A stretch of 46,031 nucleotides of DNA, from positions 1-46,031 of the forward strand of contig JAJEIE010000030.1 of assembly GCA_022827625.1 (NCBI GenBank). Reading direction: 5' to 3'. The position numbers and the translations under genes were made by a program. Of the stretch, positions 20,552-45,765 are shown one piece after another; position 1 is the stretch's first letter; every line of letters begins with the position of its first letter. Source of the stretch: Candidatus Poribacteria bacterium (GTDB taxonomy: Bacteria; Poribacteria; WGA-4E; WGA-3G). The notes below the pieces were generated by a model that was given only the letters and a program-made list of their open reading frames with translations, searched no databases and was not told the DNA's origin.

Positions 20552-20612
20552 GTTTGTAGTAGGGCAATTCTGCGGCGTACTCGCCCAAATGCGAAGTGCA
20601 TTATTGCCCGTC
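20552..20612 (+). repeat. Dispersed repeat (GTAGTAGGGCAATT...TTATTGCCCG)
   Basis: Nearly identical to 33795-33851, including the core GCGGCGTACTCGCCCAAATG. Outer arms GGGCAAT/ATTGCCC pair. A CACAAACTAACAG fragment just before it is shared with 33405 and 44023. Confidence 0.75.
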
Positions 20613-30465: not shown

Positions 30466-30551
30466 TCTTTCTCCTTATCACCAATCTCACCAGTATTATA
30501 CCAAGCCCCTATTTAAATAGCAAACGCTGAGGCGCGGGGACGGGGTCATTT

Positions 30552-30600
30552 TAGGAATTAAGACGCGATTCTACGATGGAAAGGATGCATAATTTTAAAA
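30552..30600 (-). promoter_or_regulatory. Conserved upstream element, copy 1 (lipoprotein/TolB operon)
   Basis: On the minus strand: AAAATTATGCATCCTTT, then after the usual ~21-base gap GTCTTAATTCC, about 90-115 bases before the first lipoprotein start. Weakest of the six copies (ATGCAT instead of ATGCAC). Confidence 0.5.
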
Positions 30601-30629
30601 AACCAAACAACTCTGACACATTCGCGACT

Positions 30630-33101
30630 TTAGAACGCAAGCGTCAATCCAAAATAGACGATCCGTGGCAGTTGCGGTGCGTCAAACACTTCACGCTCAA
30701 TGCCGACTTCTTGACCTTGTACGTCAAGTGTCGCCTCTTCAAAAATGAACCGTATCTCATTTTTTCGGTTGTATGCATTCAGAATATCAAGAAAACCTCC
30801 CACTTGCAAGCCCCAAACGTTCCATTTATGGCTTATCCGTAGGTCCAATTTATGATAGGGTGCAAGTTCGGTGCTTAATTGTTCATCAGCACTCGCCAAA
30901 AGTGGGTTCAATCCACGCGTTACTGGGTCCTGGATGAGAACGACGGAGCTGATGGGAACTTCGGAGGTGCCGCTGAGATATTGCCACTTCGCGCCAATTT
31001 CAAAATTCGGCGTGAAACTGTAGTTGGCGACGACACTCACAATGTGCGTGTTATCAAACAGATACGGCTGATAGGCAGCATCGGATCTCTCGCGCCGCTC
31101 GGCATGTGTGTAACTATATGAGATCCAGCCGAAGAATTTATCTGGAATCCGATGCCGCAAGAATACCTCCGCACCCCCAACGTATCCTGTCCCTTGATTG
31201 AGATAGTTCGATACTTCATCGGGTGTTACCAGTTTCTGTGCGTCTTTGTAATAGGTAGCAAATTTGAGTTCGGTCCGTGATGAGAGTGGATACTCTAATT
31301 CCATAATATAGTGCCGTGTGAGACTCGATGCCAATGCTCGGTTGCCGTCTTCTGCTAATAGGTGAGAGGGTTGTGGACTCTGTTCATAGTGTCCGTAGGC
31401 GAAGCGGAGATTAGCACTGTTTGGCAGCTGGAAACTCACGCTCCCCCGAGGTTGGATAGAGACCTGCTCAATCACATTCAAATAGTCGAAACGAACACCG
31501 AGCGCCACCGACAAAAACGAAAGTGGATCGTAGCGTGCTTGTATATATCCCTCAGCCCTATAAAAATCGTGTCCAAATTCGTCGTATATCTCTTCAACAC
31601 TGCGTTCCGTAACCTCATAAGTCCCATCATCCAGTGTGACCACTGTAACTGAATCTTCATTTGCCTCTGCATATTCAAGGACTTCCGGCAGTTCCGCCGG
31701 ATCCTCCACCTCACTTGTTACGTATTCTGGAAACCTGCCATCCTCAAAACTGTTCGCGGGACTAAATGAAAAGAGGAAACCCGGTTCAAATTGAAACTTC
31801 GGTGTTAACCGATAGGATACATCTCCCCGAAGCGTCCAGACCGGAACGTTAACCTTTACATCGTAGTGCCCATAGTCAGCAGAATAAGTCCATTCCCCCT
31901 CGGGATTCTGAGAAAACCGCTCCCTGACCGGCACTTCAAATGCAATAGTGAGGAAATTGAAGGCACGTGTCAAGGATAGATGCGAGGCGAGATTTTCGGT
32001 GAAGCCCGAACGGAGATGGATACCTTGCCCATCAAAACCGTTTTTGAAAAGAGCAGAGACGCTTGCCCTTTCAATATCCGCAGGCACTGTTTCACCTTCA
32101 ATTTCGATGTCTTCTTCCACAATCTTAAAATGATCAGTTGCAGCGAAAGCGTTGAGCGTGAGACGATGTTTTTCACCGAGAGGATAAGCAAATTTGAGTT
32201 GATAATCTGAAAAGTAGGGCAGCTGCTGTTGGCGTCCCGTCTGGCTTTCATAAATCGGTCCAGTTTCGTCTTCAAGGGTAACTGCACCGACAACGAGATC
32301 TAAGTAACTCCGCCGTCCAGAAGCAGAGATGTACCCCTTATCCCCGATTCTGGCTTCAAGCAACCCTTCAGAGTAGAGAATATTCAGGTTAAATTTTCCA
32401 TCTAATCGCTCGTTAATGTTGTCGCGCGCTTGGATGTCAAGCACGGCTTGTGAATCCAGTCCGAATTCGGCACCGTAGCCCCCGGCATAGATGTCAATTT
32501 TTTCAAGTGTTTCCGAACTCACCGTTGAAAGTAAACCGCCCCAGTGAAAAGGGTAACCGAGAGGCGTTCTGTCGAGATAGTAGAGATTCGAGCCGGGTTC
32601 ACTGCCGCGGATGTAGAGAACACCGAAGTAGTCGTTTGGAATGCCGATGCCTGGAAGGGTCATGAGTCCCTTGAGGGTATCGTTAAGCGTCCCGGGGATA
32701 CGGAGAAGTTCACTGCCTCGGATTTCTGTGCGGCTCACGGTCGACGGAAGGCGTTTTCCTTCTACAATAATGGTCTCCAGCTTAGCTGCTACACCGAGAT
32801 GGATTTTCACTTCGGTGGTGTCCCCGCTGTTAATTTCAACGGAAACTTCTGTCGGTGCTGTTTCAGTGGGATGCGTGACGATAAAAGTATATGTGCCTTC
32901 AAGGAGTTCTGTGAAGCGGAAGGTACCGTTTTTATCGGTTTTTTGATTTTGATCGGTTTCGAGAATACGAACATCGGCATTTGCAAGAGGCCTTCCGGTG
33001 CTGCGTTGATAGACGGTTCCTTGAATATCACCTGTTTGTGCTAAAGCAGGCAGGGGTATCGCGATAAACACAAACAGGATTATGATGAATTGTAGCTTCA
33101 T
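30630..33101 (-). CDS. TonB-dependent outer-membrane receptor
   Basis: 823 residues. Signal peptide LQFIIILFVFIAIPLPALA, a carboxypeptidase-regulatory-like beta domain (~22-105: GDIQGTVYQRSTGRPLANADV, GTFRFTELLEGTYTF), a TonB-box-like ETIIVEG near 110, the plug domain (SELLRIPGTLNDTLKGLMTLPG; YIRGSEPGSNLYYLDRTPL) and a 22-strand-type barrel ending in VYFGLTLAF with the terminal Phe recognised by the outer-membrane assembly machinery. It imports a ligand using TonB energy. The SusD partner typical of glycan systems is absent. Its leader holds a MITE-like element and a conserved regulatory element. Confidence 0.92.
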   Translation of the reverse strand: MKLQFIIILFVFIAIPLPALAQTGDIQGTVYQRSTGRPLANADVRILETDQNQKTDKNGTFRFTELLEGTYTFIVTHPTETAPTEVSVEINSGDTTEVKIHLGVAAKLETIIVEGKRLPSTVSRTEIRGSELLRIPGTLNDTLKGLMTLPGIGIPNDYFGVLYIRGSEPGSNLYYLDRTPLGYPFHWGGLLSTVSSETLEKIDIYAGGYGAEFGLDSQAVLDIQARDNINERLDGKFNLNILYSEGLLEARIGDKGYISASGRRSYLDLVVGAVTLEDETGPIYESQTGRQQQLPYFSDYQLKFAYPLGEKHRLTLNAFAATDHFKIVEEDIEIEGETVPADIERASVSALFKNGFDGQGIHLRSGFTENLASHLSLTRAFNFLTIAFEVPVRERFSQNPEGEWTYSADYGHYDVKVNVPVWTLRGDVSYRLTPKFQFEPGFLFSFSPANSFEDGRFPEYVTSEVEDPAELPEVLEYAEANEDSVTVVTLDDGTYEVTERSVEEIYDEFGHDFYRAEGYIQARYDPLSFLSVALGVRFDYLNVIEQVSIQPRGSVSFQLPNSANLRFAYGHYEQSPQPSHLLAEDGNRALASSLTRHYIMELEYPLSSRTELKFATYYKDAQKLVTPDEVSNYLNQGTGYVGGAEVFLRHRIPDKFFGWISYSYTHAERRERSDAAYQPYLFDNTHIVSVVANYSFTPNFEIGAKWQYLSGTSEVPISSVVLIQDPVTRGLNPLLASADEQLSTELAPYHKLDLRISHKWNVWGLQVGGFLDILNAYNRKNEIRFIFEEATLDVQGQEVGIEREVFDAPQLPRIVYFGLTLAF

Positions 33102-33137
33102 TCAGGTGTTTTGCCCTCCGTTTCGGACGTTCGTTAA

Positions 33138-33228
33138 TAGGACTTACGCAATTCCCTGGTAGGTGCGGTTTCTAACCGCACCGATCGCCTGATAAATAGC
33201 GGAATTTCGCAATTTTGCGTAAGCCCTG
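33138..33228. mobile_element. MITE-like element in the TonB receptor leader
   Basis: Starts TAGGACTTACGCAATTCC and ends GGAATTTCGCAA...TTGCGTAAGCCCT, so the ends form near-perfect inverted repeats. It is ~91 bp, has no gene, and contains a nested REP-like palindrome GTAGGTGCGGTT/AACCGCACC at 33159-33185. A related element lies at 33520-33571. Confidence 0.6.
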
Positions 33229-33229
33229 T

Positions 33230-33308
33230 TAAATTTAAAACGTTACGCTATTGTTCCGTTATTGAAGATACAGCTTTAAGGCGAAAAGGGTGCATAATCT
33301 GAATTTTC
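33230..33308 (-). promoter_or_regulatory. Conserved upstream element, copy 2 (TonB receptor)
   Basis: Minus strand: CAGATTATGCACCCTTTTCG, TATCTTCAATAACGGAACAA, and TTTTAAATTTAACAGG ~60 bases from ATTATGCAC. Aligns almost column for column with copy 6 (43841-43920). The GTAACG before the final block is a possible -10. Confidence 0.6.
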
Positions 33309-33404
33309 ACCTGAAAAACGGCAAATTTCTTGAAACTATCCTTCAACGGCTTAGCTGTAATTATAGAGTAAAGTCAATAATTTCTTGGACATCCCGATTG
33401 TAGC

Positions 33405-33423
33405 GCAAACTGTTAGTTTGCGA
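33405..33423. repeat. Palindrome CGCAAACT-GTT-AGTTTGCG
   Basis: Perfect 8+3+8 palindrome; the same design recurs at 44023-44041 as CACAAACT-GTT-AGTTTGTG. Part of the 33.1-33.9 kb intergenic region, which contains repeats but no supported gene. Confidence 0.7.
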
Positions 33424-33519
33424 GTTCTCCACCCCTGCACAAACTAAAAGTTTATGCCACGAAGGTCCACTTATTTTTCGGTTTTACTATAAGACATAAT
33501 CTTATTTTTTTATTTTTTT

Positions 33520-33571
33520 GGACTTACACATTTCCCTTATCAGGGGACTTATGGACTTTTTGCGTAAGTCC
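33520..33571. mobile_element. Second MITE-like palindromic element
   Basis: GGACTTACACATTTCCC at one end and TTTTTGCGTAAGTCC at the other: GGACTTAC/GTAAGTCC inverted ends similar to the element at 33138-33228. The interior has CCTTATCAGGGG. Noncoding. Confidence 0.5.
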
Positions 33572-33633
33572 TAACAATTCAACGCCCAATTGGATTTTTC
33601 AGTTGACATAAAGTCTATGCTTACCAGTACGCG

Positions 33634-33672
33634 AAAAAGCCGAACGTCCGTCAAGCACACGCTCGGCTTCTT
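33634..33672 (-). terminator. Rho-independent terminator (minus strand)
   Basis: On the minus strand AAGCCGAGCGT, a loop, ACGTTCGGCTT followed by TTT: an 11-bp stem with one G-T pair and a T-run. It lies ~260 bp beyond the NHL gene stop and probably ends the DUF1800-DUF1501-NHL transcript. Confidence 0.7.
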
Positions 33673-33715
33673 TGTATCTCTGAACTTTCCAATGTAAAAT
33701 CATAGGTAAACCCGG

Positions 33716-33885
33716 TTCGTAGTAGGGAAACCATTCATTGCCCGTCGTTAGCCTACGAACGTGCGATAAATCACACTACTACGAGCCATCCGTTTGTAGT
33801 AGGGCAATTCTGCGGCGTACTTGCCCAAATGCAAAGTGCATTATTGCCCGTTTCTGACGTGCGATAAATCACACTACTACAAACC
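33716..33885 (+). repeat. Two adjacent copies of the GTAGTAGGG dispersed repeat
   Basis: Copy one (33716-33784) and copy two (33791-33885) both run from TCGTAGTAGGG or TTGTAGTAGGG to GTGCGATAAATCACACTACTAC. The second contains the GCGGCGTAC core also found at 20552-20612 and 44083-44115. Confidence 0.75.
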
Positions 33886-33929
33886 CACCTAAAATTCAAA
33901 ATGGATAGAACACCATAGTCGTCTAAATG

Positions 33930-34943
33930 TTATTCCTGATGCAACGTAACCGACCGACGCGGTGGACTAAATTGCTGCGGTGTCAACGGCACCGCCATAT
34001 TCCGATACACCTGCACCCGATAGGCTCCGAAGTCCGGCACAAACATCAACCCATCGTCGCTGACGGCGACGGATTTGGGTGAACGCAGGTATTTCTGCGG
34101 TTCCAGGTCCGCCATGTCGCGCATCCGATTTGGACTGCCGTTTGTCATCATATAAGCCAGTGACACCTTTGACAGTGTAGCGTCTCCGAGGAATTTCTGC
34201 ACATACCGTCCTTCTTCGTTGAAGAGTTGGATGCGATTGTTTCCACGGTCAGCAACATAGATATCACCGTTCAAATCAACGTCAATACCGGCGGGACGAT
34301 TGAGTTCGCCGTTGCCGCTGCCAGACCTACCGAATTCAAAAAGGAACTCCCCTTCGGCATTGAACTTCTGTACCCGGTCATTTCGCCAATCCGAAACGTA
34401 GACATCACCAAGTTCGTCCACAGCGACACCCCACGGCATGTTGAATTCACCCTCACCCTCACCGTAGCTGCCCCACTGCAAAAGAAACTTACCATCCTTG
34501 GTGAACTTCTGTACCCGATGGCTCAAACTGTCAGCAATGTAAAGATTTTCGTCGGGATCAAACGCCATACCCGAAGGTCCGTTGAGCTGCCCGGGTTCAG
34601 TGCCGTGTTCCCCCCATGTGCCGATGTGTTCACTGTCCTTGTTAAAGGCAACAATCCGATGTAAGTATTCATCAGACACATAGATATTCTCTTCACTATC
34701 GGCGGTAATCGTCACGGGCCACGTGAATTGACCGTCACCTTGTCCATAGCCGCCCATTGTACCGAGGTCTTCATCCTCAACGGTATATTTTCGGATCATT
34801 GCCGTGCCGTCGTTGCGGCACATGATATATAAACGTCCCTCTTTTCCGACCGCAATGTCAACCGGAAAGTTGGTTGTCCGCCGCATGCTCAGGGTCTTGT
34901 GAAATGGATACCCGGCACGCAGCAAGCCGTAAGGTCTGCCCAT
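33930..34943 (-). CDS. NHL-repeat beta-propeller protein
   Basis: 337 residues from the ATG at 34943, chosen because AGGAGG lies 5 bases upstream (the frame extends 25 codons further). At least five NHL blades are visible: FPVDIAVGKEGRLYIMCR, WPVTITADSEENIYVSDEYLHRI, GPSGMAFDPDENLYIADSLSHRV, MPWGVAVDELGDVYVSDWRNDRV and RPAGIDVDLNGDIYVADRGNNRI, then SPKSVAVSDDGLMFVPDFGAYRV. Each blade is ~47 residues. No signal peptide is evident at the chosen start. NHL propellers bind proteins, RNA or small ligands. Third gene after DUF1800 and DUF1501, 171 bp downstream, with a hairpin in the gap. Confidence 0.9.
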   Translation of the reverse strand: MGRPYGLLRAGYPFHKTLSMRRTTNFPVDIAVGKEGRLYIMCRNDGTAMIRKYTVEDEDLGTMGGYGQGDGQFTWPVTITADSEENIYVSDEYLHRIVAFNKDSEHIGTWGEHGTEPGQLNGPSGMAFDPDENLYIADSLSHRVQKFTKDGKFLLQWGSYGEGEGEFNMPWGVAVDELGDVYVSDWRNDRVQKFNAEGEFLFEFGRSGSGNGELNRPAGIDVDLNGDIYVADRGNNRIQLFNEEGRYVQKFLGDATLSKVSLAYMMTNGSPNRMRDMADLEPQKYLRSPKSVAVSDDGLMFVPDFGAYRVQVYRNMAVPLTPQQFSPPRRSVTLHQE

Positions 34944-35064
34944 CATAACCTCCTGTTTTTCTAACGATTGCTTCTGGACGCTGCGTCCGTTGTTCTTGCG
35001 ATTTTCGTCTAACTTCACTATTAATGGTGCTAACAGCCATCTATTGCTTGTCTTTGACGGACAT

Positions 35065-35087
35065 CTTCAAGAACAACGTTCTTGAAG
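35065..35087. repeat. Perfect 10-bp stem hairpin
   Basis: CTTCAAGAAC, AAC loop, GTTCTTGAAG, between the DUF1501 stop and the NHL start. No T-run, so a processing site or attenuator is as likely as a terminator. Confidence 0.65.
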
Positions 35088-35114
35088 CTCAGATTTAATC
35101 GTTAAAAATTATTC

Positions 35115-36248
35115 TTAGGAAAAAGGTTGGATCTGTTCAAAATTCCCACCGACGATGTGAGTCGGGTCTACACCCATCCACTGCTCCAGCAGTGTTCCGT
35201 AGATACCCCGGAAGTCAATGGTGTGCTCAAGGTCTTCACCGTGTGCCCAACGGGAGGGGTCAAGTGACGGATATTCGGAATAGAGTCCGCCTTTCACCCG
35301 ATCACCAATGATAAACGCACCACCGCCGGTGCCGTGGTCGGTTCCGCTGGCGTTGTCTCGGATACGTCTGCCGAATTCCGTGAAGACGTACATGACGACC
35401 TCTTCAGAGGCATCGTGCGCACGAAGGTCAGTGAAGAACGCTTGGATGGCTTCTGTAAGATCCTTCAGGAGCCGCGGATGGTTTGGTACCTCGTTGGCGT
35501 GGTTATCATACCCGCCGTGCTGCGTGTAAAAAATGCGTGTACCGAGGTCGGCGAAGTGAACGCGAGCGACATCCCGTAGGCTTTTCGCGATCGAACTTTG
35601 CGGGTATTCCACGTCAGACTGATACATTGCTGGTGCCTTCTTAAGTTCATCGGCACCCTTAATCACATCCAACCCTGTCTGGCTGAGGTAGTCCATTACG
35701 ATACCGCTGCCGATTGTACTGCTATACATCGCTTTGAAGATTTCAAGTGCCTTCGTCCGGTGTCCTTCATCGCCGATACTGGTCATCAGACCGTAGTTAT
35801 CCAAGTCGCCGACAGAGGTAACCGGGACACCCGAAAGGGCACAGGCACGTGGGAGACCTTGCCCAAAACTGACAGCCGTTAGAACGTTATGACTCTGCGG
35901 ATCGAGCTCCCGAACGAGTCTACCGACCCACCCTTCATCACCAATCTTCAGCGGTTCACAGGTGTGCCAAATATCCATTGCCCGGAAGTGCGAACGGTTT
36001 GAATCTGGGTAGCCTATACCTTGCACAACGGCGACATCGCCAGCATCAAACATCTCTTTTAGCGGTGCAGCACTCGGATTCCATCCCAAGGTATCGTCAT
36101 GGGGCATCACATCTTCGGCTTTGATGCCGACGACAGGTCGGGAATCGTGATAAATCCCTGCCGTGTACGGGATAAGCGTGTTCATAAAGTCGTTGCCGCC
36201 AGAGAGCTGCACAACGACAAGGACCGGGGGTTTCTTCGTAGTACTCAT
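35115..36248 (-). CDS. DUF1501 domain protein
   Basis: 377 residues, AGGAG before the ATG. Landmarks: VLVVVQLSGGNDFMNTLIPY, GYPDSNRSHFRAMDIWHTCEP, YTQHGGYDNHANE, VMYVFTEFGRRIRDNASGTDHGTGG. These are diagnostic of DUF1501, which has an alkaline-phosphatase/sulfatase-like fold; the conserved S-G-G-N-D, S-H-F and D-H-G segments are candidate metal or active-site residues. The typical Tat leader is absent. It follows DUF1800 by 18 bp; the pair is almost always adjacent in genomes, and the function is unknown. Confidence 0.93.
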   Translation of the reverse strand: MSTTKKPPVLVVVQLSGGNDFMNTLIPYTAGIYHDSRPVVGIKAEDVMPHDDTLGWNPSAAPLKEMFDAGDVAVVQGIGYPDSNRSHFRAMDIWHTCEPLKIGDEGWVGRLVRELDPQSHNVLTAVSFGQGLPRACALSGVPVTSVGDLDNYGLMTSIGDEGHRTKALEIFKAMYSSTIGSGIVMDYLSQTGLDVIKGADELKKAPAMYQSDVEYPQSSIAKSLRDVARVHFADLGTRIFYTQHGGYDNHANEVPNHPRLLKDLTEAIQAFFTDLRAHDASEEVVMYVFTEFGRRIRDNASGTDHGTGGGAFIIGDRVKGGLYSEYPSLDPSRWAHGEDLEHTIDFRGIYGTLLEQWMGVDPTHIVGGNFEQIQPFS

Positions 36249-36266
36249 GTCAATATCTCCTAAAGG

Positions 36267-37655
36267 TTAGCCAAGTTGATACTCTCTTGAAGCCACAATT
36301 AATTGGAGCATATTCACGACCTTGGTTTGATTCGTCGCTGCCGCGTCGTCATCTCCAAAATCGAGTTCACCACTCGCCTCTGCAAATTCGGTCAAATACT
36401 GCTTCGTGGTATCGCCTACCGGCAGTGGACCTACATAATCAAGGCATTGGTCAACAAATTCTTCAGCTGAGAGCGAGCTCCCATTAGATGCTTTCAGGCG
36501 GACAATCAGATCCTGAATACCAGGCTTGGACGCATCACTCACCTCACGAACGGCGAAGTTCACACGAGAGGTCAGCAGTCCACCATCAATCCACTCTTTA
36601 CCGGTGTGCCAACCTTCAACTGTGGGTGGATCGAGGAGTTTCTGCCCCATTAATTGGGTAGCACCCGCAAACTGTGCCGCTCCGGGTTGGGGAGATTGGA
36701 AAGTACCTACCAACTTCACGACGCCAAGGACGAGTTCCGTCGGACTCTTTACCTTCTTGAATTGCGCTTCTTTGAAGAAATCAGAATTGAAGAGGACCTC
36801 CAAGACATGCGCCAGATGCCCATCGGACTCCATAAACGCGTTTGCGAGCGTCTCAATGGCATCGGGGTCCTGCGGCGGGGTCACATTCCACGACGGCACT
36901 TGCGGCTCATCCGCCACGAAGAAGTTATAGAGGTGGCGGGAGACAAACCTTGCGCAAGCGGGTTGTTCAACGATGATGTCAATGATGTCATCGCCGTTGA
37001 AGTTTCCGGTGTGTCCCAAGAAGGTTTTCTCGCAGTCATCGTGTTCTTCTTCAACAAACATGAACGGCGGTGAGTAGTAACCGTGCGGATACAACGGAAT
37101 CGGTTGCCCGAATGTCCAGCCCGTAAAAGCGAGGGCGCAGTTTTTGATATCGTCCTCTGTGTAGTTACCAACACCTAACGAGAAAAGTTCAAGGAGTTCT
37201 CTGCCGTAATTTTCGTTGGGTTCACCTTTGCGATTTTCGTTGTTATCCAGCCAGAAGATCATCGCTGGGTCTTTGGAGAGTTCGAGCAGAATGTCCCGCA
37301 TCTTGCCCATACCGACCCGCCGAAGCATATCAATCTGGTCTGAAGACGCAAGGATATGCTGATTCTTGCCGAGTCCTGTCGCGAAGACATGGTGCCAGAA
37401 GAGTGCCATCTTCTCCTGAAGTGGGCATCTGCTGTTCAGCATCCGATAGATCCAGATACCGACATAGGCACCTTCGCCACCGAAGTAGCGTTCTAAAATA
37501 TCTTCATCAATAGGGGTTCCGCGTTCAGGATGGACGAGATCGTCAACAACGTTCTCGTAGCCTTTCTCGGCGTAGGCTTCCAACTCGGTGCGGGTTGCTC
37601 CAAACCCTGCGCGGCGCATGAGGTGCGCCATTAACGCAACATCGTTGTTCGACAT
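36267..37655 (-). CDS. DUF1800 domain protein
   Basis: 462 residues from the ATG at 37655, preceded by GGAGGTGAAC; the frame runs on upstream without a better ribosome site. Signatures: HLMRRAGFGATRTELEAYAE, EKMALFWHHVFATGLGK, DNNENRKGEPNENYGRELLELFSLG, GEDDIKNCALAFTGW-like segment and FKKVKSPTELVLGVVK. DUF1800 proteins occur with DUF1501 in many environmental and marine bacteria and are suggested to be exported, though no leader is seen here. Leads a probable operon with DUF1501 and perhaps the NHL gene. Confidence 0.93.
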   Translation of the reverse strand: MSNNDVALMAHLMRRAGFGATRTELEAYAEKGYENVVDDLVHPERGTPIDEDILERYFGGEGAYVGIWIYRMLNSRCPLQEKMALFWHHVFATGLGKNQHILASSDQIDMLRRVGMGKMRDILLELSKDPAMIFWLDNNENRKGEPNENYGRELLELFSLGVGNYTEDDIKNCALAFTGWTFGQPIPLYPHGYYSPPFMFVEEEHDDCEKTFLGHTGNFNGDDIIDIIVEQPACARFVSRHLYNFFVADEPQVPSWNVTPPQDPDAIETLANAFMESDGHLAHVLEVLFNSDFFKEAQFKKVKSPTELVLGVVKLVGTFQSPQPGAAQFAGATQLMGQKLLDPPTVEGWHTGKEWIDGGLLTSRVNFAVREVSDASKPGIQDLIVRLKASNGSSLSAEEFVDQCLDYVGPLPVGDTTKQYLTEFAEASGELDFGDDDAAATNQTKVVNMLQLIVASREYQLG

Positions 37656-37873
37656 GTTCACCTCCGATAGGTTCACGGTGAGGAGGGTCCTCACGTTAGT
37701 GACTTTCGATGGAATACCGTTTTCACGATAAGGTTCGTTCAATTATATTCGGAGAAATTACCGTAAGGTTACGCCTATCTTACAATTAAAGCAAAAAAAA
37801 TGTCAAGTTTTTTGTTTTTTCGCTGTCAGCCGTCAGCGGTCGGTTGTCGGTTTTAAGAAACTTCAAAATTTTT

Positions 37874-37950
37874 TTCATTTTATGCACATTTTCGACCCGA
37901 CCATTACGACTATAATAATTGGACTTTTTATGATATACTTTAAATTTAAC
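37874..37950 (+). promoter_or_regulatory. Conserved upstream element, copy 3, with extended -10 (TolB cluster)
   Basis: CATTTTATGCACATTTTCG, CTATAATAATTGGAC, and TGATATACTTTAAATTTAAC at the end. TGATATACT (37931-37939) looks like an extended -10 promoter ~83 bases before the first TolB gene. The spacing of ATTATGCAC-like to TTTAAATTTAA matches copies 2 and 6. The 37.66-38.02 kb gap otherwise shows a GCTGTCAGCCGTCAGC-type short repeat at ~37821. Confidence 0.6.
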
Positions 37951-38021
37951 AGAAAGGGAAAAAAAATAAGGTAAGGGCTAAACCCCCGTTAATATCAGGT
38001 GAGGCGGCAGGTGGTGTTCTG

Positions 38022-39023
38022 ATGCAGAGAAAATATCTATTTCTTTTTCTAATTGTTCCCTTAGTTCCCCTGCTTGTAGAGATCTTCCCCGTTTTTGCGA
38101 AAGCACCCAGCACGGCTAAGATCGTGTTTGGGGCAAATCGCGGGCAGGATCGCGACATCTACCTAATGAATCCCGATGGAACACAGCAAGTTAACATCAC
38201 CAACCATCCCGCCGATGACATCTCACCTGTCTTTTCACAAACTGGTGAACAGATTCTTTTTGCTTCTAATCGAGGGAATCCCGCGCCGAGAACTTGGGAT
38301 TTGTATCTTATGGACATTGACGGCGGAAATGTTCAGAAGGTATTCGCGAAACCTGCAATTAGAATAGCGCCAACATGGTCTCCAGATGGAAAACGAATTG
38401 CCTACCAGCGGATGGATCCTGGCGGACCCTTCATCTACATTGCTACAATGGATGAGAAAAAAGAAGAACGCGTGGCAATCGGTGCCGGTCCCGCATGGTC
38501 TCCAAACGGTACAGAGATCGCGTTTGTTAGTGGCGCGCCTGAACGCAAGCAGATTAGTATACTGAACCTCCACACACGAAAATCTAAAGTTCTCTTTCCT
38601 GCTAAACCGGTCCCCTCTTGGATACCGGCTTCTGTTGCTTGGTCTCCCACAGGTGACAGGATAGCGTTTTCGTGGCTCCATCGTGTGCCACTCAAGGACT
38701 TTCCTGAAACAGAAACCATATATTTTGTGAATCGCGATGGGACTGGGCTTTTGCAGGTTATTGATGAGGCCGGTCCCTGGGTTGTGTCTCCAGTTTGGTC
38801 GCCTCAAGGAGATGAGCTCCTTTATATGCGGCATGATGGAAAAGCTGAGTGGTCTTGGCAGATTTTCAGAACGGATTTAGTAGGCGGCCAACCGGAACAA
38901 CTCACTCATATTGGCATCTGGAATAGTCCAGCAGATTGGTTTGATCCAGCGTATGCATTGCAGGTTTCCCCACAACCGCAGTTGCTAACCACGACATGGG
39001 CAGACGTGAAAATTCAAGATTGA
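38022..39023 (+). CDS. Secreted TolB-like (PD40) beta-propeller protein, paralogue C
   Basis: 333 residues. Signal peptide KYLFLFLIVPLVPLLVEIFPVFA, then KIVFGANRGQDRDIYLMNPDG and blades SPVFSQTGEQILFASNRGN, APTWSPDGKRIAYQ, GPAWSPNGTEIAFVSG, SVAWSPTGDRIAFSW and SPVWSPQGDELLYM. Ends DWFDPAYALQVSPQPQLLTTTW (DWFDPAYALQV, then PQPQLLTTTWADVKIQD). First of five plus-strand paralogues separated by short gaps. Compared with the minus-strand pair it has longer inter-blade segments (PLKDFPETETIYFVNRDGTG). Ligand unknown; likely periplasmic or surface. Confidence 0.9.
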   Translation: MQRKYLFLFLIVPLVPLLVEIFPVFAKAPSTAKIVFGANRGQDRDIYLMNPDGTQQVNITNHPADDISPVFSQTGEQILFASNRGNPAPRTWDLYLMDIDGGNVQKVFAKPAIRIAPTWSPDGKRIAYQRMDPGGPFIYIATMDEKKEERVAIGAGPAWSPNGTEIAFVSGAPERKQISILNLHTRKSKVLFPAKPVPSWIPASVAWSPTGDRIAFSWLHRVPLKDFPETETIYFVNRDGTGLLQVIDEAGPWVVSPVWSPQGDELLYMRHDGKAEWSWQIFRTDLVGGQPEQLTHIGIWNSPADWFDPAYALQVSPQPQLLTTTWADVKIQD

Positions 39024-39080
39024 ATTGCTGCCACGCCCATCTTATCTCGCACGCAAATAAGAATACGAGGAGCTTCTAAA

Positions 39081-40103
39081 ATGATTAAGACCTATACCAG
39101 AGGTTTTTTCACGATATTTCCTCTATTTTTTTATCTTTTCAGCTTAATAGTATTGTCCGGAAATATATGTCTTGTTCCGGCAAAAGCACCAACAACATCT
39201 AAAATCGCGTTTGCGGCGACCCCAAACGGGAACTGGGATGTTTTGTTGATGAATCCTGATGGCACTCAGCCAGTAAACCTGACGAAGCATCCCGCAGCGG
39301 ATCACACACCGGTTTGGTCTCCAACGGGTGAACAGATTATTTTCTCTTCAGACCGCGATAGGTTTCCAGGGAGTATAGACCTCTACCTGATGGACCCGGA
39401 CGGTTCCAACGTGCGTCGAGTTTTCGGAAAATCAAAAGATAGAGCCGGTGCAACATGGTCGCCAGATGGAAAACAGATCGCTTATGTTTCTCTGGAGCGC
39501 GGGCAATTCGTTCTTTATATCGGCACAATAGATGGAAAAAAAGAAGAGCGCGTGGCATTCGGATCTGCGCCAGTATGGTCACCGGATGGGACAGTGATAG
39601 CCTTTAACGTCGGGTGGCCAGAACGTATGCGAATTAGTGTCTTGAATGTCGAAACACTTCGTCAAAAGTTTCTTTTCCCACCAGAACCACAACCTTCATG
39701 GATGGGAAAAATAACATGGTCTCCAAGTGGAGATAGGCTCGCCTTTTCATGGCTGCATCGTGAACCGTTAAAAGACTTCCTTGAAACCCAAACAATCTAT
39801 ACCGTGAACCGCGATGGTACCAGTCTTAAACAGATTGTCCCTGAGGCGGGCCTGCAAGCCCGTGCTCCGGTATGGTCGCCAGATGGGAGTGTTCTTCTCT
39901 ACCAACAGGTAATAATTAACAAAGCCCTGGAAAAAAAGGAGTGGCAAATTTTCAAAATTGACGCGTCCGGTGGCGAGTCTATTGAAGTGGGGCCTCCTGG
40001 GTGGTATAGTTTAGGGGATTGGTTCGATCCAACGTATGCGTTGCCGGTTTCATCACAACCGCATCTGCTAACAACAATATGGGGAGAAGTAAAAAAGAAA
40101 TAG
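39081..40103 (+). CDS. Secreted TolB-like (PD40) beta-propeller protein, paralogue D
   Basis: 340 residues, GAGGAGC before the ATG, 57 bp after paralogue C. Signal peptide core TIFPLFFYLFSLIVLSGNI. Blades: TPVWSPTGEQIIFSSDRDRF, GATWSPDGKQIAYVS, APVWSPDGTVIAFN, KITWSPSGDRLAFSW and APVWSPDGSVLLYQQ. Ends GDWFDPTYALPV and SQPHLLTTIWGEVKKK. Very close to paralogue E (41426), including VRRVFGKSK and PSWMGKITWSPSGDRLAFSWLH-type stretches, suggesting a recent duplication. Confidence 0.9.
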   Translation: MIKTYTRGFFTIFPLFFYLFSLIVLSGNICLVPAKAPTTSKIAFAATPNGNWDVLLMNPDGTQPVNLTKHPAADHTPVWSPTGEQIIFSSDRDRFPGSIDLYLMDPDGSNVRRVFGKSKDRAGATWSPDGKQIAYVSLERGQFVLYIGTIDGKKEERVAFGSAPVWSPDGTVIAFNVGWPERMRISVLNVETLRQKFLFPPEPQPSWMGKITWSPSGDRLAFSWLHREPLKDFLETQTIYTVNRDGTSLKQIVPEAGLQARAPVWSPDGSVLLYQQVIINKALEKKEWQIFKIDASGGESIEVGPPGWYSLGDWFDPTYALPVSSQPHLLTTIWGEVKKK

Positions 40104-40129
40104 TTCCTTAACCTTAAAAGTTCAATTTT

Positions 40130-40200
40130 TTTTAAATTATGCACACTTTTCCAACAAAATTGTGTCTTTAATAATCAATGAGATTGTGTTCCAGTAAGAT
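40130..40200 (+). promoter_or_regulatory. Conserved upstream element, copy 4 (paralogue F)
   Basis: TTTAAATTATGCACACTTTT, AAAATTGTGTCTTTAATAAT, then a possible -10 GATAAT near 40198. The middle block is nearly identical to copy 5. About 180-250 bases before the next start. The 40.10-40.38 kb gap holds nothing else recognisable. Confidence 0.55.
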
Positions 40201-40379
40201 AATTCATTTCTCGTTTCTGAAGTTCGATAAATCAAACGCCCACGAACCCAACCTAAAATTCAAATCGGGATGTTTCATATCCCACTTGGAGAAGAATAAC
40301 ATTGAGAAATTTCATCCCAGATGTAGTCGTGTTTCACCGCTACGTCTATCTGCTCTAATAAACGCTGGGAGGCGTAAAA

Positions 40380-41354
40380 ATGAAACGTCTGTTCAAATAT
40401 ACCCTATTAGGCACCCTATGGCTTCTCACTCTAATACTTCTACCCCTAAGCACGCACAGCGCGGATGTTGGATATATAGCTTTTTCGTCCTATAGAGGGG
40501 AGAACCGCGATATTTACATCATAGATACTGACGGGCAGAATCTCCAGAATCTAACGAACACTCCTAACATCGGTGAGTTAGATCCGACCTTTTCCCCCGA
40601 TGGGCGTTATATGGCTTACGCTGCCTATCATAATAGAAATTCAGATATCTATGTGTTGGATTTGGAAACACAGGCACGCAGACGATTGACCCACAACCTT
40701 AGCGAAGACACATCTCCTGCTTGGTCCCCTGACGGAAAATGGATTGCCTTTATTTCTAACCGACGTACCAGTTATGAGATTTACAAAATTAATGCCAAAG
40801 GTGGCAACCCTCAGCTCCTGACACCGCTGCGCGATAGAGACAGTTTCGCACCCGCATGGTCACCCGATAATCAATGGATTGCTTTCTTTTCTGTTGGTGA
40901 TCAAGTTGGCAATCACAACCCGCGCATCTATGTGGTGTCTTCCGACAAGAAACAGATGCATCAGCTTGCATCTGCCCTTAGGTCTGGTCCGACGTGGTCT
41001 CCTATTGGAGACAAGATTGCCTTTCCTGCTTCGAGCGGCGCGTGGACTTCTCATATTTACATCATGCGCGCCGATGGGGCTGATGTTCACCAATTAACGC
41101 ATGGTGTGAATTGGCACGGGGAGCCTGCTTGGTCTCCGAATGGACGATGGATCGCCTATACTTCAGGTGAACCTGTAAAAGGGGCTGCTAAAAGAGACCT
41201 CTATCTGATAGATGCGATCGGCGGAGCACCGCGTCAACTAACGACGCATCCGTCGGGCGGTAGAGATCCAGCGTGGGTCCCTGAACTGTTCTTCTCCGTT
41301 TCACCGAGTACAGAGAAGATGACAACGTTGTGGGGAAAAATTAAACAAGAATAG
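40380..41354 (+). CDS. Secreted TolB-like (PD40) beta-propeller protein, paralogue F (divergent)
   Basis: 324 residues, GGGAGGCG before the ATG. Signal peptide TLLGTLWLLTLILLPLSTHSA. Blades: DPTFSPDGRYMAYAAYHNRN, SPAWSPDGKWIAFISNRRTS, APAWSPDNQWIAFFS, GPTWSPIGDKIAFPASS and EPAWSPNGRWIAYTSG. Closest to generic TolB C-domains and the most divergent member: it lacks the WFDPA segment, but still ends VSPSTEKMTTLWGKIKQE. It sits between the near-twin paralogues D and E, so it was not produced by the same duplication. Confidence 0.9.
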   Translation: MKRLFKYTLLGTLWLLTLILLPLSTHSADVGYIAFSSYRGENRDIYIIDTDGQNLQNLTNTPNIGELDPTFSPDGRYMAYAAYHNRNSDIYVLDLETQARRRLTHNLSEDTSPAWSPDGKWIAFISNRRTSYEIYKINAKGGNPQLLTPLRDRDSFAPAWSPDNQWIAFFSVGDQVGNHNPRIYVVSSDKKQMHQLASALRSGPTWSPIGDKIAFPASSGAWTSHIYIMRADGADVHQLTHGVNWHGEPAWSPNGRWIAYTSGEPVKGAAKRDLYLIDAIGGAPRQLTTHPSGGRDPAWVPELFFSVSPSTEKMTTLWGKIKQE

Positions 41355-41425
41355 CGTGAAGGATTTCTGCCGGCACGCATATCCTTTTACTGTTGCTACA
41401 ATCAACAACGCGAGGTTCTTATAAA

Positions 41426-42448
41426 ATGTTTGATGCTAACGTGAAACGTTTTTTCAACAGACTCCTCTTAATTTTTTATATTATCAGTTTTCTGTTATTA
41501 TGCCAAACGATTGAGCGTATTTTTGCCAAGGCACCAGACACCGCGAAAATTGTGCTTTCAGCGACACCAAATGGTGATTGGGATATCCTATTGATGAATC
41601 CAGATGGATCCGAACAGACCAATCTTACCAACAATGCGGCACTGGATTATTATCCGGCTTGGTCTCCAACGGGTGAACAGATTCTTTTCTCCTCAGACCG
41701 CGATCGGTTTCAGGGGAGTTTAGACCTGTATTTGATGGATGCCGATGGTAGAAACGTGCGTCGAGTTTTCGGAAAATCTAAAGAAAGAGTGGCAGCGGTA
41801 TGGTCTCCAGATGGAACACAGATTGCGTATTGTGCTCGAGAGCAAGGGCAATCGGTGCTTTATATCGGCACAATAGATGGGAGAAAAGAAGAACGCGTGG
41901 CATTTGGATGTGGACCAGCGTGGTCGCCGGATGGTACAGAAATAGCATTTATTACCGGATTGCCTGGTATGCGGATCGCTATACTTAATGTTGAAACACA
42001 CCGCCAAAAGTTTCTCTTTCCTCCAGAGGCACAGCCTTCATGGATGGAGAAAGTAGCGTGGTCTCCGGCGGGAGACCGACTTGCTTTTTCGTGGCTGCAT
42101 CGTGTGCCGTTAAAAGACTTCCTTGAGACGCAGACGATTTATACCTTGAATCGTGATGGTGGCGATCTTAAGCAAATTGTCCCTGAGGCGGGTTTACGCG
42201 CAGTGAATCCGATGTGGTCTCCAGATGGAAGCGTTCTGTTTTATCAACAGTTAATAATGGATAAGGCATTGGCAAAAAAACGATGGCAAATCTTCAGAGT
42301 TGCTGCGATAGCTGGGGAACCGGTTGAAGTGGGACCCTCAGGGTGGTATAGTTTAGGTGATTGGTTTGATCCTGCTTTTGCATTACCAGTTTCACCGCAG
42401 CCGCAGTTGCTAACGACGATATGGGGCGAAGTGAAAAAGAATCCTTGA
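41426..42448 (+). CDS. Secreted TolB-like (PD40) beta-propeller protein, paralogue E
   Basis: 340 residues from the ATG at 41426 (MFDANVKRFF; GCGAGG upstream), preferred over an earlier in-frame start. Signal peptide LLLIFYIISFLLLCQTI. Blades: YPAWSPTGEQILFSSDRDRF, AAVWSPDGTQIAYCAR, GPAWSPDGTEIAFITG, KVAWSPAGDRLAFSW and NPMWSPDGSVLFYQQ. Ends GDWFDPAFALPV and PQPQLLTTIWGEVKKNP. Near-identical in layout to paralogue D. Confidence 0.9.
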   Translation: MFDANVKRFFNRLLLIFYIISFLLLCQTIERIFAKAPDTAKIVLSATPNGDWDILLMNPDGSEQTNLTNNAALDYYPAWSPTGEQILFSSDRDRFQGSLDLYLMDADGRNVRRVFGKSKERVAAVWSPDGTQIAYCAREQGQSVLYIGTIDGRKEERVAFGCGPAWSPDGTEIAFITGLPGMRIAILNVETHRQKFLFPPEAQPSWMEKVAWSPAGDRLAFSWLHRVPLKDFLETQTIYTLNRDGGDLKQIVPEAGLRAVNPMWSPDGSVLFYQQLIMDKALAKKRWQIFRVAAIAGEPVEVGPSGWYSLGDWFDPAFALPVSPQPQLLTTIWGEVKKNP

Positions 42449-42596
42449 AAACACTTTGATCTCAAAGCTGGAACAGAATAGACACGACTTATTAGATCAA
42501 TCAACGAAAGTCGTAAGTATTTTGAAAAGATATTCATAGGCACGATTCTACAAGTTGTTCTTTTGATGTTTGTTTCTAATTTTGGAGGTGATTTTC

Positions 42597-43574
42597 ATGG
42601 TTAGGGAACTTTTATTTTTGTTTTCCACTTACAGTTTGGTATCCCTATGCTGGACTTCCCCCGTTTTCGCTGAAGCTCCGGAAACCCCTAAGATCGCGTT
42701 TTGGGCAGACCGCGGAGGAACTCGCGATATCTATCTCATGAATCCAGATGGCACAGACCAAGTGAAAATAACCCAACATCACTCACAAAACATCACGCCG
42801 GTCTGGTCCCCAACGGGTGAACAGATCCTCTTCGTCTCTGACCGAGATGGGGTCTGGGACCTATACCTCATGGATCCAGATGGAACAAATGTTCAACGCG
42901 TTTTTGAGAAAGAGGCATTCAGAGCGGAGCCGACGTGGTCTCCCGATGGCGAACAGATTGCCTACTCGCGCATCATAAACGATGAACGAGTCGTCCACAT
43001 TGCCACGCTCGGTGAGCAAGTCGAGGAACGAATCGCAATTGGTGGTCCTGCTGCGTGGGCACCAGACGGAATGGAACTGGCGTTTCTCACGGGGTGGGCA
43101 GCGCAAAAGATGCAAATTACGCTCTTCAACTTGCACACCGGCAACCGGAAAAATCTTTTTCCACCTAAGGCGATACCCTCGTGGATGTCCAGCAGTGCGC
43201 GGTGGTCCCCTACTGGAGACAAGCTGGCTTTTTCTTGGCAGCATCAGGTGCCTCTTAAGGATTTTGTTGAGACAGAGACGATTTACACAATAAATCGCGA
43301 TGGGACAGGTCTTACCCAGATTATTGAGGAAGCGGGTCCCAGGGCAACGTCGCCGGTATGGTCTCCGCGTGGTGATGCACTGCTCTATAAACGCTCAGCG
43401 GGAAACAGGAGTTATCAAATCTTTAAAATGAGTTTAGATGGTGGGGAACCTGAACGACTGACGGATATTGGCTGGAATCATCTCGGAGATTGGTTTGATC
43501 CAGCGTATGCACTACCCGTTTCACCGCAACCGCAACTCCTAACCACAACATGGGCAGAAATGAAAAAGAAATAG
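42597..43574 (+). CDS. Secreted TolB-like (PD40) beta-propeller protein, paralogue G
   Basis: 325 residues from the ATG at 42597, chosen for the strong GGAGGTGATT site upstream. Signal peptide ELLFLFSTYSLVSLCWTSPVFA. Blades: TPVWSPTGEQILFVSDRDGV, EPTWSPDGEQIAYSR, PAAWAPDGMELAFLTG, SARWSPTGDKLAFSW and SPVWSPRGDALLYKR. Ends GDWFDPAYALPV and PQPQLLTTTWAEMKKK. Its N-terminal third is closer to paralogue C than to D/E. Last TolB-like gene of the array. Confidence 0.9.
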   Translation: MVRELLFLFSTYSLVSLCWTSPVFAEAPETPKIAFWADRGGTRDIYLMNPDGTDQVKITQHHSQNITPVWSPTGEQILFVSDRDGVWDLYLMDPDGTNVQRVFEKEAFRAEPTWSPDGEQIAYSRIINDERVVHIATLGEQVEERIAIGGPAAWAPDGMELAFLTGWAAQKMQITLFNLHTGNRKNLFPPKAIPSWMSSSARWSPTGDKLAFSWQHQVPLKDFVETETIYTINRDGTGLTQIIEEAGPRATSPVWSPRGDALLYKRSAGNRSYQIFKMSLDGGEPERLTDIGWNHLGDWFDPAYALPVSPQPQLLTTTWAEMKKK

Positions 43575-43720
43575 TCTGTCCCGATTCTCACACATCTCAG
43601 CATAAAGATGCCAACCTTCTATTTTGGTTGGATCATTAACCCCTCCTACTCCTCTACAGGAACGCTCTCCCGATCGCGACTCTCAACTGAGAACCGAAAA
43701 CTGAAAACTAATTTTACATT

Positions 43721-43770
43721 TTTTCAGATTATGCACAATTCCGCCGCAAAAATTGTGTCTTTAATAATAA
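43721..43770 (+). promoter_or_regulatory. Conserved upstream element, copy 5
   Basis: TTTTTCAGATTATGCACAAT, AAAAATTGTGTCTTTAATAA. Same core and spacing as copy 4 but with no clear -10 after it. Lies ~150 bp after paralogue G and ~410 bp before the WD40-dockerin start; may be a relic or belong to a leader. Confidence 0.5.
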
Positions 43771-43840
43771 AAGGAACTTTCTTCCTAAGCACGCTTAGGT
43801 CGAACATACGTTTTTTGGACAAAATTTGAATAAAAATAAG

Positions 43841-43920
43841 AAAAATCAGATTATGCACCTTTTTTTCCTTAAAATTACATCTTTAAATCACAGAACAATA
43901 AAGTAATGCTTTAAATTTAA
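43841..43920 (+). promoter_or_regulatory. Conserved upstream element, copy 6 (WD40-dockerin gene)
   Basis: AATCAGATTATGCACCTTTT, CATCTTTAAATCACAGAACA, and GTAATGCTTTAAATTTAAGG. Aligned with copy 2 over ~70 bases with the same spacing. The 43.57-44.18 kb gap contains this element, copy 5 and repeat fragments, but no gene I can support. Confidence 0.6.
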
Positions 43921-44016: not shown

Positions 44017-44115
44017 ATGTACCACAAACTGTTAGTTTGTGTGTACGGTTGGAGAGCCCGCAAACTAACAGTTTTGCGGCGTACTCGCCCAGATGCGATG
44101 TGCATCGCGCTACGA
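44017..44115 (+). repeat. Composite of CACAAACTGTT palindrome and GCGGCGTACTCGCCC repeat
   Basis: Contains CACAAACT-GTT-AGTTTGTG (44023-44041), an inverted GCAAACTAACAGTTTTGC, and then GCGGCGTACTCGCCCAGATG, a partial copy of the repeat at 20552 and 33791. An open frame crosses it into the next gene but is not thought to be coding. Confidence 0.7.
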
Positions 44116-44178
44116 AAGAAGTGTCCAATTAATTATGGAATTCACTATAAACTCGAGGGTTTTCACGTCGAAGATTTG

Positions 44179-45765
44179 ATGAAAAGCGCAATCGTTAATC
44201 GAAAAAGTTTGGTAGTGATCTTAGGTATTGTGTTGATAGGCATTGGCGCGCAGGGCATTAACTACAGTGAAGCTGCCGACGCGTATCCACCGACCTCACG
44301 TATCATCCTACTCAAGGACGGAATTTCAATACTCTTTGTGCCACCACAAGGTCGAGGAACCGTTTATGCCGCAAAGAACTTCAGTACTGTTTCTCTCGAT
44401 TTAGTTCGCAACTCCAAATGGCAGCGGCGAGATGATTCAACGAGCCCCTGGGTTGATGTTCCTGATTCAGAAAGAGCTACCGGATTATACGGCTACGTAC
44501 TAACGCTTCCCGGTGAATATAGATGGGTGGGTGAACTGAACATCAATGGCACATGGGGAAAATACAGCAGCCGGAATCTGCTTGGGCTCGCGCAAGAAGG
44601 AACAGTAACGGACATTCCAGCAGAAACAGAAGGTGTCCCGAACGACCAACACAAACTGACCCTTGAGCGGCATACAAAAGGGGTCCTTGCCGTAACACTC
44701 TCTCCCGATGGGCGCACGTTAGCAAGCGGAGACTATGACGGGACGATTCGAGTGTGGGATGCGAAAACTGGAGAACACAAGCTGATACTCAGAGGGCATA
44801 CGGAAGGTGTTACTTGCCTATCACTCTCTCCCGATGGACGCACGTTAGCAAGTGGGAGCTGGGACCGGACGGTTCGGTTGTGGGATGCAGCAACCGGAGA
44901 ACACATACTCACTTTTAAAGGGCATAAGGATGGTGTTCGTTCCGTAGCGTTCTCGCCGGATGGGCGCACGTTAGCGAGTGGGAGTTATGACTATTCGATT
45001 CAGGTGTGGGATGCAGCAACCGGAGAACACATACTCACTTTTAAAGGGCATAGGCATTATGTTCGTTCCGCAGTGTTCTCGCCGGATGGGCGCATGTTAG
45101 CGAGTGGGAGTTATGACCGGACAGTTCGAGTGTGGGATGCAGAAACCGGAGAACCTCTGCAGACGCTCGAAGGGCATACGGATGGTGTCCTTACTGTGGC
45201 GTTCTCACCGGATGGTCGCACGTTAGCGAGCGGGGGTTATGACCGGACGATCCGGCTGTGGGATGCCAAAACCGGGCAACACCTACAGACGCTTGAGGGG
45301 CATACGCATGATGTCAATTCCGTAGCCTTCTCTCCCGATGGTCGCACATTAGTCAGTGGGGGTAATGACTATACGATCCAGATATATGACGACACGATTC
45401 GAGTGTGGGATGCAGAAACCGGAGAACCCCTACAGACGCTTAGAGGGCATAAGGCAGGTGTCACTTCCCTGGCTTTTTCCCAAGATGGTCGCACTCTGGC
45501 AAGTGGGAGTTGGGACCGGACAGTTCAGGTGTGGGAACTGACACCCACCACGCCTGCTGTCGAACCATCCCAACTCGGAGGCGATCTCAACGCCGACGGT
45601 GTCGTCAATGTCCAGGATCTCGTCCTCGTTGCATCGCAGTTTGGACAAACCGGGCAGAATGCAGGAGACATCAATAAAGATGGTGTCGTCAATATCCAAG
45701 ACTTGGTCTTAGTCGCAGGAGCGTTCAATGTTACTGTGTCGGCACCCGATGCCCATCCACAATAG
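44179..45765 (+). CDS. Secreted seven-bladed WD40 protein with C-terminal dockerin type I repeat
   Basis: 528 residues from the ATG at 44179, which gives a clean signal peptide ([18 protein letters not shown]). Residues ~35-145 form an uncharacterised N-terminal beta domain ([20 protein letters not shown]...). Seven WD40 blades follow with a 42-residue period (GH...[29 protein letters not shown] type), enough to close a propeller. The end has paired calcium-binding dockerin loops ([20 protein letters not shown] and [20 protein letters not shown]). Neighbouring blades are almost identical at DNA level, and blade six has a seven-residue extra segment (QIYDDTI). Dockerins dock to cohesins, none of which is in the window. 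Confidence 0.93.
   Translation: [528 protein letters not shown]

Follow-up and report, generated by a model that had tools for sequence, protein, structure and literature searches.

Two-box elements of a Candidatus Poribacteria genome as probable promoters of a regulon under membrane-tethered, autoregulated ECF sigma factors

Six copies of a two-box DNA element present in the window, i.e. the whole contig C23 (46,031 nucleotides) of a Candidatus Poribacteria draft genome (5.02 Mb), and their relatives elsewhere in this genome are very probably promoters through which membrane-tethered ECF sigma factors control their own genes and a wider regulon. In the Poribacteria, uncultured symbionts of sponges, these sigma factors most likely constitute a large and hitherto undescribed family of membrane-anchored transcription factors; no description of ECF signalling in Poribacteria was found in the literature searched. 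The two half-sites were read as the -35 and -10 boxes of an ECF promoter because of their composition, spacing and targets. The identity of the element as a promoter is well supported, and its activity as such is predicted from sequence; the pairing of individual sigma factors with individual copies, sensing on the outside of the cell and proteolytic release are parts of a model that we infer.

All six copies reported in the preliminary description were found in place, with 9-mer starts at 30585 (-), 33290 (-), 37879 (+), 40136 (+), 43728 (+) and 43850 (+), and the two-box weight matrix returned exactly these six sites, in agreement with the earlier statement that the window holds no further copy. 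The copies at 30585 and 37879 read ATTATGCAT and TTTATGCAC, respectively. The described spacer of 20-21 bases to a second half resembling TCTTTAAT was likewise observed, TCTTTAAT itself being exact in two copies only. Each copy was supported by the sequence profile, the weight matrix and the mapping of downstream genes (Table 1), and all six point to genes of exported or envelope-type proteins, as had been proposed. The first copy (profile E 3e-10, weight-matrix score 50.8) is situated 128 bp before its gene and reads toward an operon of lipoproteins and PD40 propellers (30465-26229), whose first gene gave no match in the Pfam scan and is accompanied in the same operon by two similar lipoproteins and PD40 propellers. 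The nearest relative of the second copy was the promoter of a BNR-type sigma gene at C30:549512 (80% over 56 columns). The dockerin domain implied by the label given earlier to the WD40 gene was not seen among the 25 Pfam families listed. There were no sigma genes within the window itself.

Table 1. Candidate promoters and their predicted target genes in the window
Feature	Position	Strand	Details
Copy 1, ECF-type promoter	30547..30601	-	-35 TGCATCC 30583-30589; -10 CGTC 30562-30565
Copy 2, ECF-type promoter	33252..33306	-	-35 TGCACCC; -10 TATC 33267-33270; upstream of TonB-dependent receptor
Copy 3, ECF-type promoter	37871..37925	+	-35 TGCACAT; -10 CGAC 37907-37910; upstream of PD40 propeller genes 38022-40103
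Copy 4, ECF-type promoter	40128..40181	+	-35 TGCACAC; -10 TGTC 40163-40166; upstream of PD40 propeller genes 40380-43574
Copy 5, ECF-type promoter	43720..43774	+	-35 TGCACAA; -10 TGTC 43756-43759; distal of tandem pair before WD40 gene
Copy 6, ECF-type promoter	43842..43896	+	-35 TGCACCT; -10 CATC 43878-43881; proximal of tandem pair before WD40 gene
Copy 1 target: predicted lipoprotein, 213 aa	29824..30465	-	hydrophobic N-terminus with LSGC lipobox on visual inspection
Copy 2 target: TonB-dependent receptor with carboxypeptidase-regulatory-like domain	30630..33101	-	Pfam PF13620, PF07715, PF00593
Copy 3 target: exported PD40 beta-propeller protein	38022..39023	+	PF07676; followed by 39081-40103
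Copy 4 target: exported PD40 beta-propeller protein	40380..41354	+	PF07676; followed by 41393-42448 and 42570-43574
Target of copies 5 and 6: WD40 repeat protein	44017..45765	+	PF00400

Genome-wide, the 9-mer ATTATGCAC alone was unremarkable (13 one-mismatch matches against 8.9 expected), while the combination TTATGCAC-N17-25-TCTTTAA had 10 matches versus none for the reversed pattern; the tight pattern TGCAMSNTTT-N-TCTTTAAT, with 2 sites only, was too strict for use. A profile derived from 13 copies by sequence only gave 49 matches at E <=10, including 42 with E <0.1, and about 50 copies were estimated for the genome in total (5.0 Mb), a lower bound because 150 of 1684 first-look candidates were scored. 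The two-box weight matrix was applied to 689 kb of own-genome sequence fetched around matches and sigma genes and detected 52 sites, with 0 in the reversed control; this number does not represent genome density because of the way in which the sequence was picked. None of the 52 sites lay inside a gene, though 89% of the fetched sequence was called coding, and at 50 of them the first gene downstream was co-directional, mostly 60-360 bp away, as expected from the earlier proposal that the element points toward genes.

These figures bear directly on the reading of the element as a dispersed repeat or a fragment of a mobile element that is intergenic by chance, to which we assign practically no probability. 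It could draw on the high number of copies and on other dispersed repeats nearby, at 33690-33890; against it, orientation to genes is strict, only promoter-like positions are conserved between unrelated flanks, and the element is kept across species. Copies scattered without regard to gene starts or orientation, which the preliminary description had named as the mark of such a repeat, were not what the genome-wide search returned. The intergenic position and orientation of the sites ruled this candidate out. The separate dispersed repeat at 33690-33890 and around 20596 (GGGCAATAATGCACTT..GCAGAATTGCCCTACTACAAAC and CGATAAATCACACTACTAC) is unrelated to the element, and the 9-mer near-matches ATAATGCAC at 20596 and 33836 belong to it.

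Alignment of 43 own sites on their boxes revealed a T-tract, an A, ATTATGCA[C/A][C/G][C/T]TTT, a short variable stretch, AAAATTG, [C/T]GTCTTTAAT and an A-rich run. TGCA and TTT of the first box and TC of the second were almost invariant, and the latter TC was invariant across 90 sites from other Poribacteria. The distance from ATTATGCAC to GTC was 20 in 29 of 43 sites and 19 in 10, which, counted after a 7-base -35, corresponds to n17 and n16. ECF sigma factors typically recognise AAC at -35 and CGT at -10, and their own genes are generally autoregulated (PMC3426412). The element combines an AAC-like -35 with a CGT/CGTC-like -10 at about 16-17 bp, the -35 being CAC/CAA-like and not strictly AAC; in the window it is TGCAC or TGCAT versus the textbook AAC, the -10 boxes vary (CGTC, TGTC twice, TATC, CATC and CGAC), and the spacing is one base above typical in most copies. 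Each copy would be a full core promoter for RNA polymerase with an ECF-type sigma factor, in which an UP-like T-tract precedes the -35 (TGCA[C/A]C, then TTT) and the -10 ([C/T]GTC, within GTCTTTAAT). Transcription would be expected to start a few bases past the -10, where conservation ends.

Information content fell to about zero beyond ~17 nt after GTC, alike in the 43 own sites and the 90 from other Poribacteria. If the element were instead part of a cis-acting leader in the RNA, such as a riboswitch or thermosensor, as the possible imperfect ATTATGCAC/GTGTCTTTAAT pairing in some copies could suggest, this leader would go on where conservation halts abruptly; by inspection, the pairing is moreover broken in several copies (33290, 43850 and 37879). 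We regard this reading as extremely improbable, and with no Rfam match in the window and the pairing not kept, it was ruled out.

The same loss of conservation decides on the model proposed in the preliminary description, namely that the element is the operator of a class I transcription activator, situated near -62, and that the promoters downstream of it are of the sigma-70 type, with TTTAAATTTAA following their -10. As had been noted, TTTAAATTTAA occurs in three copies, and these are its only occurrences in the window (33229-33239, 37939-37949 and 43910-43920); it lies ~37 nt past the second half-site, is preceded by -10-like hexamers, and is found at the same distance past the -10 of the sigma gene promoter at C30:549512. 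However, it is missing in 39 of 43 own sites (present in 4) and in all 90 foreign ones, is present at 7 further places in the genome that lack the element, and falls where information is near zero. No conserved hexamer was detected downstream in the 133 sites (43 own and 90 other), and the half-sites are directional, with neither the palindrome nor the direct repeat typical of a dimer. An activator with a downstream -10 is very unlikely and was ruled out by the loss of conservation in own and foreign sites; TTTAAATTTAA may be a secondary feature of one promoter sub-group.

The targets fit the ECF promoter reading. The commonest was an ECF sigma gene, sigma factors making up 19 of 50 first genes. 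Among the 31 non-sigma first genes, 25 encode a hydrophobic N-terminus against a background of 37% (p 8e-7), which bears out the earlier expectation of enrichment before exported proteins, and members of the regulon include PD40, WD40, Kelch, LRR-dockerin, FG-GAP, TonB receptor, ABC permease and MacB/FtsX proteins. It should be mentioned that tandem elements (C33:165209 and C33:165391) also precede a gene for a sigma-54 activator protein of 334 aa, which points to a possible cascade with ECF factors acting above sigma-54 control.

The genome contained 43 matches to sigma region 2, and 24 proteins form one long sigma family with near-identical N-termini. The element is positioned directly upstream of 16 of the 24 paralogues, and 5 more are in an operon headed by it; 3 are without it. 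No primary-type sigma gene of this genome has the element. A search of a GTDB collection with the family profile returned 79 loci, all from Candidatus Poribacteria. When the own-genome matrix was run on 78 foreign sigma upstream regions, 43 scored >=32 within 500 bp and the others <=-0.6, with 0 matches on the reverse complement. A further 34 foreign loci with no site close by were examined; in 21 of them, a site heads the co-directional gene chain or lies within it, and several others run off the contig. The element therefore stands before the sigma gene or its operon in 21 of 24 own and 64 of 78 foreign members, the arrangement of an autoregulated ECF promoter. Across 85 genomes of the phylum, the element and many family members occurred together in 38 of 38 genomes of the genus and in 18 of 18 of genus g4; genera g2 and g3, with 1-3 family members, and other families had no element, one match excepted. 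Promoter variants also tracked sigma clades (17 changes for either box versus 30 for the -10 and 37 for the -35 in shuffles). This covariation is partly inherited linkage, because orthologous genes keep their upstream DNA, and is thus supportive, not proof.

These distributions need to be weighed against another ECF-based explanation, in which all copies are read by a small number of short canonical ECF sigma factors, or by a single one, which would switch on the long sigma genes as targets. One general consensus is indeed common to all copies, and outside the long family two short ECF genes, the only such sigma genes, have a clear element: one of 234 aa (C35) and one of 177 aa (site C15:57045) with a zf-HC2 anti-sigma-like partner. 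Yet the promoter variants follow clades of the long family, genomes with the element hold many paralogues with intact sigma2/sigma4, and genera with 1-3 members are without it, for which reasons we consider this explanation unlikely. Since the 177-aa factor and its partner carry the element, classical and fused systems may share promoters.

Under the preferred reading, the copies would be recognised by the Poribacteria-specific family itself, in which one polypeptide is predicted to combine sigma2/sigma4 with one membrane-spanning helix, a conserved segment next to the membrane and an outer domain that varies between members. Pfam domains PF04542 and PF08281 (sigma2 and sigma4) scored above cut-off in 20 of 20 long paralogues scanned, and sigma region 1 or 3 was not listed in them, the composition that defines ECF factors. 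The nearest solved structure to the sigma part was that of Bacillus subtilis SigW (PDB 5wuq, E 3.6e-34). Depending on the paralogue, sigma4 is followed by Kelch, BNR/sortilin, LRR, GHL15, M61 peptidase, redoxin, Ig-like or HTH domains, or by none that could be named. Hydropathy indicated one strong hydrophobic segment at ~217-250 in 18 of 23 own paralogues and no predicted transmembrane helix in 5 of 23; the conserved juxtamembrane segment RFQKPYSFEA...TIEIIDAP comes after it, and zf-HC2 was not found by Pfam in the ~28 residues between sigma4 and the helix. The positive-inside rule left the topology of the family ambiguous, and homology to exported proteins argues for an outside location of the C-terminal domain.

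Proteins resembling the outer domain of a sigma paralogue were encoded by 9 of 88 targets versus 4 of 409 other genes, as if the outer domains had been taken from regulated neighbours. At two loci, genes adjoining a sigma fusion (L070:3767-6166 and L070:1131-3683; L071:5579-6778 and L071:6824-7432) have products 57-61% identical to its C-terminal domain, M61 peptidase and HTH-like in nature, hinting at how sigma fusions arose. Other sigma fusions were also encountered. A 577-aa protein (L057:13070-14800, C20) has ECF sigma2/sigma4 fused in frame to an entire DnaN sliding clamp, with full-length one-frame matches in many genomes of the genus (38-89% identity), and a 403-aa protein (L068:5060-6268, C15) joins ECF sigma2/sigma4 and a tubulin/FtsZ GTPase domain; the motif upstream of both differs from the element and is ECF-like (TTTTTTTAAACC..CCTCTTTA).

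In the mechanism that we propose, the family sigma factors would turn on their own genes together with exported propeller, LRR, TonB-receptor and ABC-transporter genes. The outer domain would sense an external ligand, and the sigma part would either be freed by regulated proteolysis through a site-2 protease or be active while tethered. The genome encodes a site-2 protease of 569 aa, hence RsgI-like release is possible. We see about even chances for a broader, lineage-wide form of signalling, with dozens of one-protein receptors per genome, each driving its own promoter variant, and with outer domains captured from regulated exported proteins. If the proposed mechanism holds, a genome would contain many sigma factors that serve as transmembrane receptors themselves and need no anti-sigma factor of their own as a second protein, the element would list by its sequence alone the targets of each membrane receptor where genetics is unavailable, and the promoter/sigma variants may serve as independent gene switches.

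SigW, the best solved relative of the Poribacteria sigma part, is short and has its membrane anti-sigma factor as a distinct protein, unlike the fusions described here. ECF41 resembles the Poribacteria system in having a bipartite promoter before the sigma gene or operon and a C-terminal extension of the sigma factor (PMC3426412); its promoter is TGTCACA-n16+/-1-CGTC (PMC3426412), to be compared with TGCACNN-n17(16)-[C/T]GTC in Poribacteria. It differs in that its extension is a soluble regulatory domain and its -35 is TGTCACA versus TGCACCC here.

ECF52 (SCO4117), ECF48 and ECF53 were reported from Actinobacteria, with autoregulation suggested and proteolytic release proposed (PMC8999054, PMC5826349). 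They carry the ECF sigma domain, a transmembrane helix and an extracellular domain on one polypeptide, and the Poribacteria family likewise has a C-terminal helix (in the 18 own paralogues mentioned above) and a putative outer domain. However, the actinobacterial proteins have a zinc-finger anti-sigma domain, whereas none was detected between sigma4 and the helix in the Poribacteria family; ECF52 bears a proline-rich and carbohydrate-binding part in contrast to the Kelch, BNR, LRR or enzyme-like outer domains in Poribacteria, and this family is set further apart from the three groups by its number of paralogues, ~20 or more in the majority of genomes within the genus. In Clostridium thermocellum, SigI/RsgI are parallel autoregulated sigma systems with differing outer sensors that control exported proteins and involve cleavage by RseP (PMC12203970, PMC4711584). 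The likeness lies in several parallel autoregulated systems, each with its own outer domain and exported-protein targets, but there the sensor is located on a separate anti-sigma factor and SigI belongs to another sigma group, while in Poribacteria sensor and sigma form one chain. ECF52-type fused membrane sigma factors and SigI/RsgI are the closest known systems.
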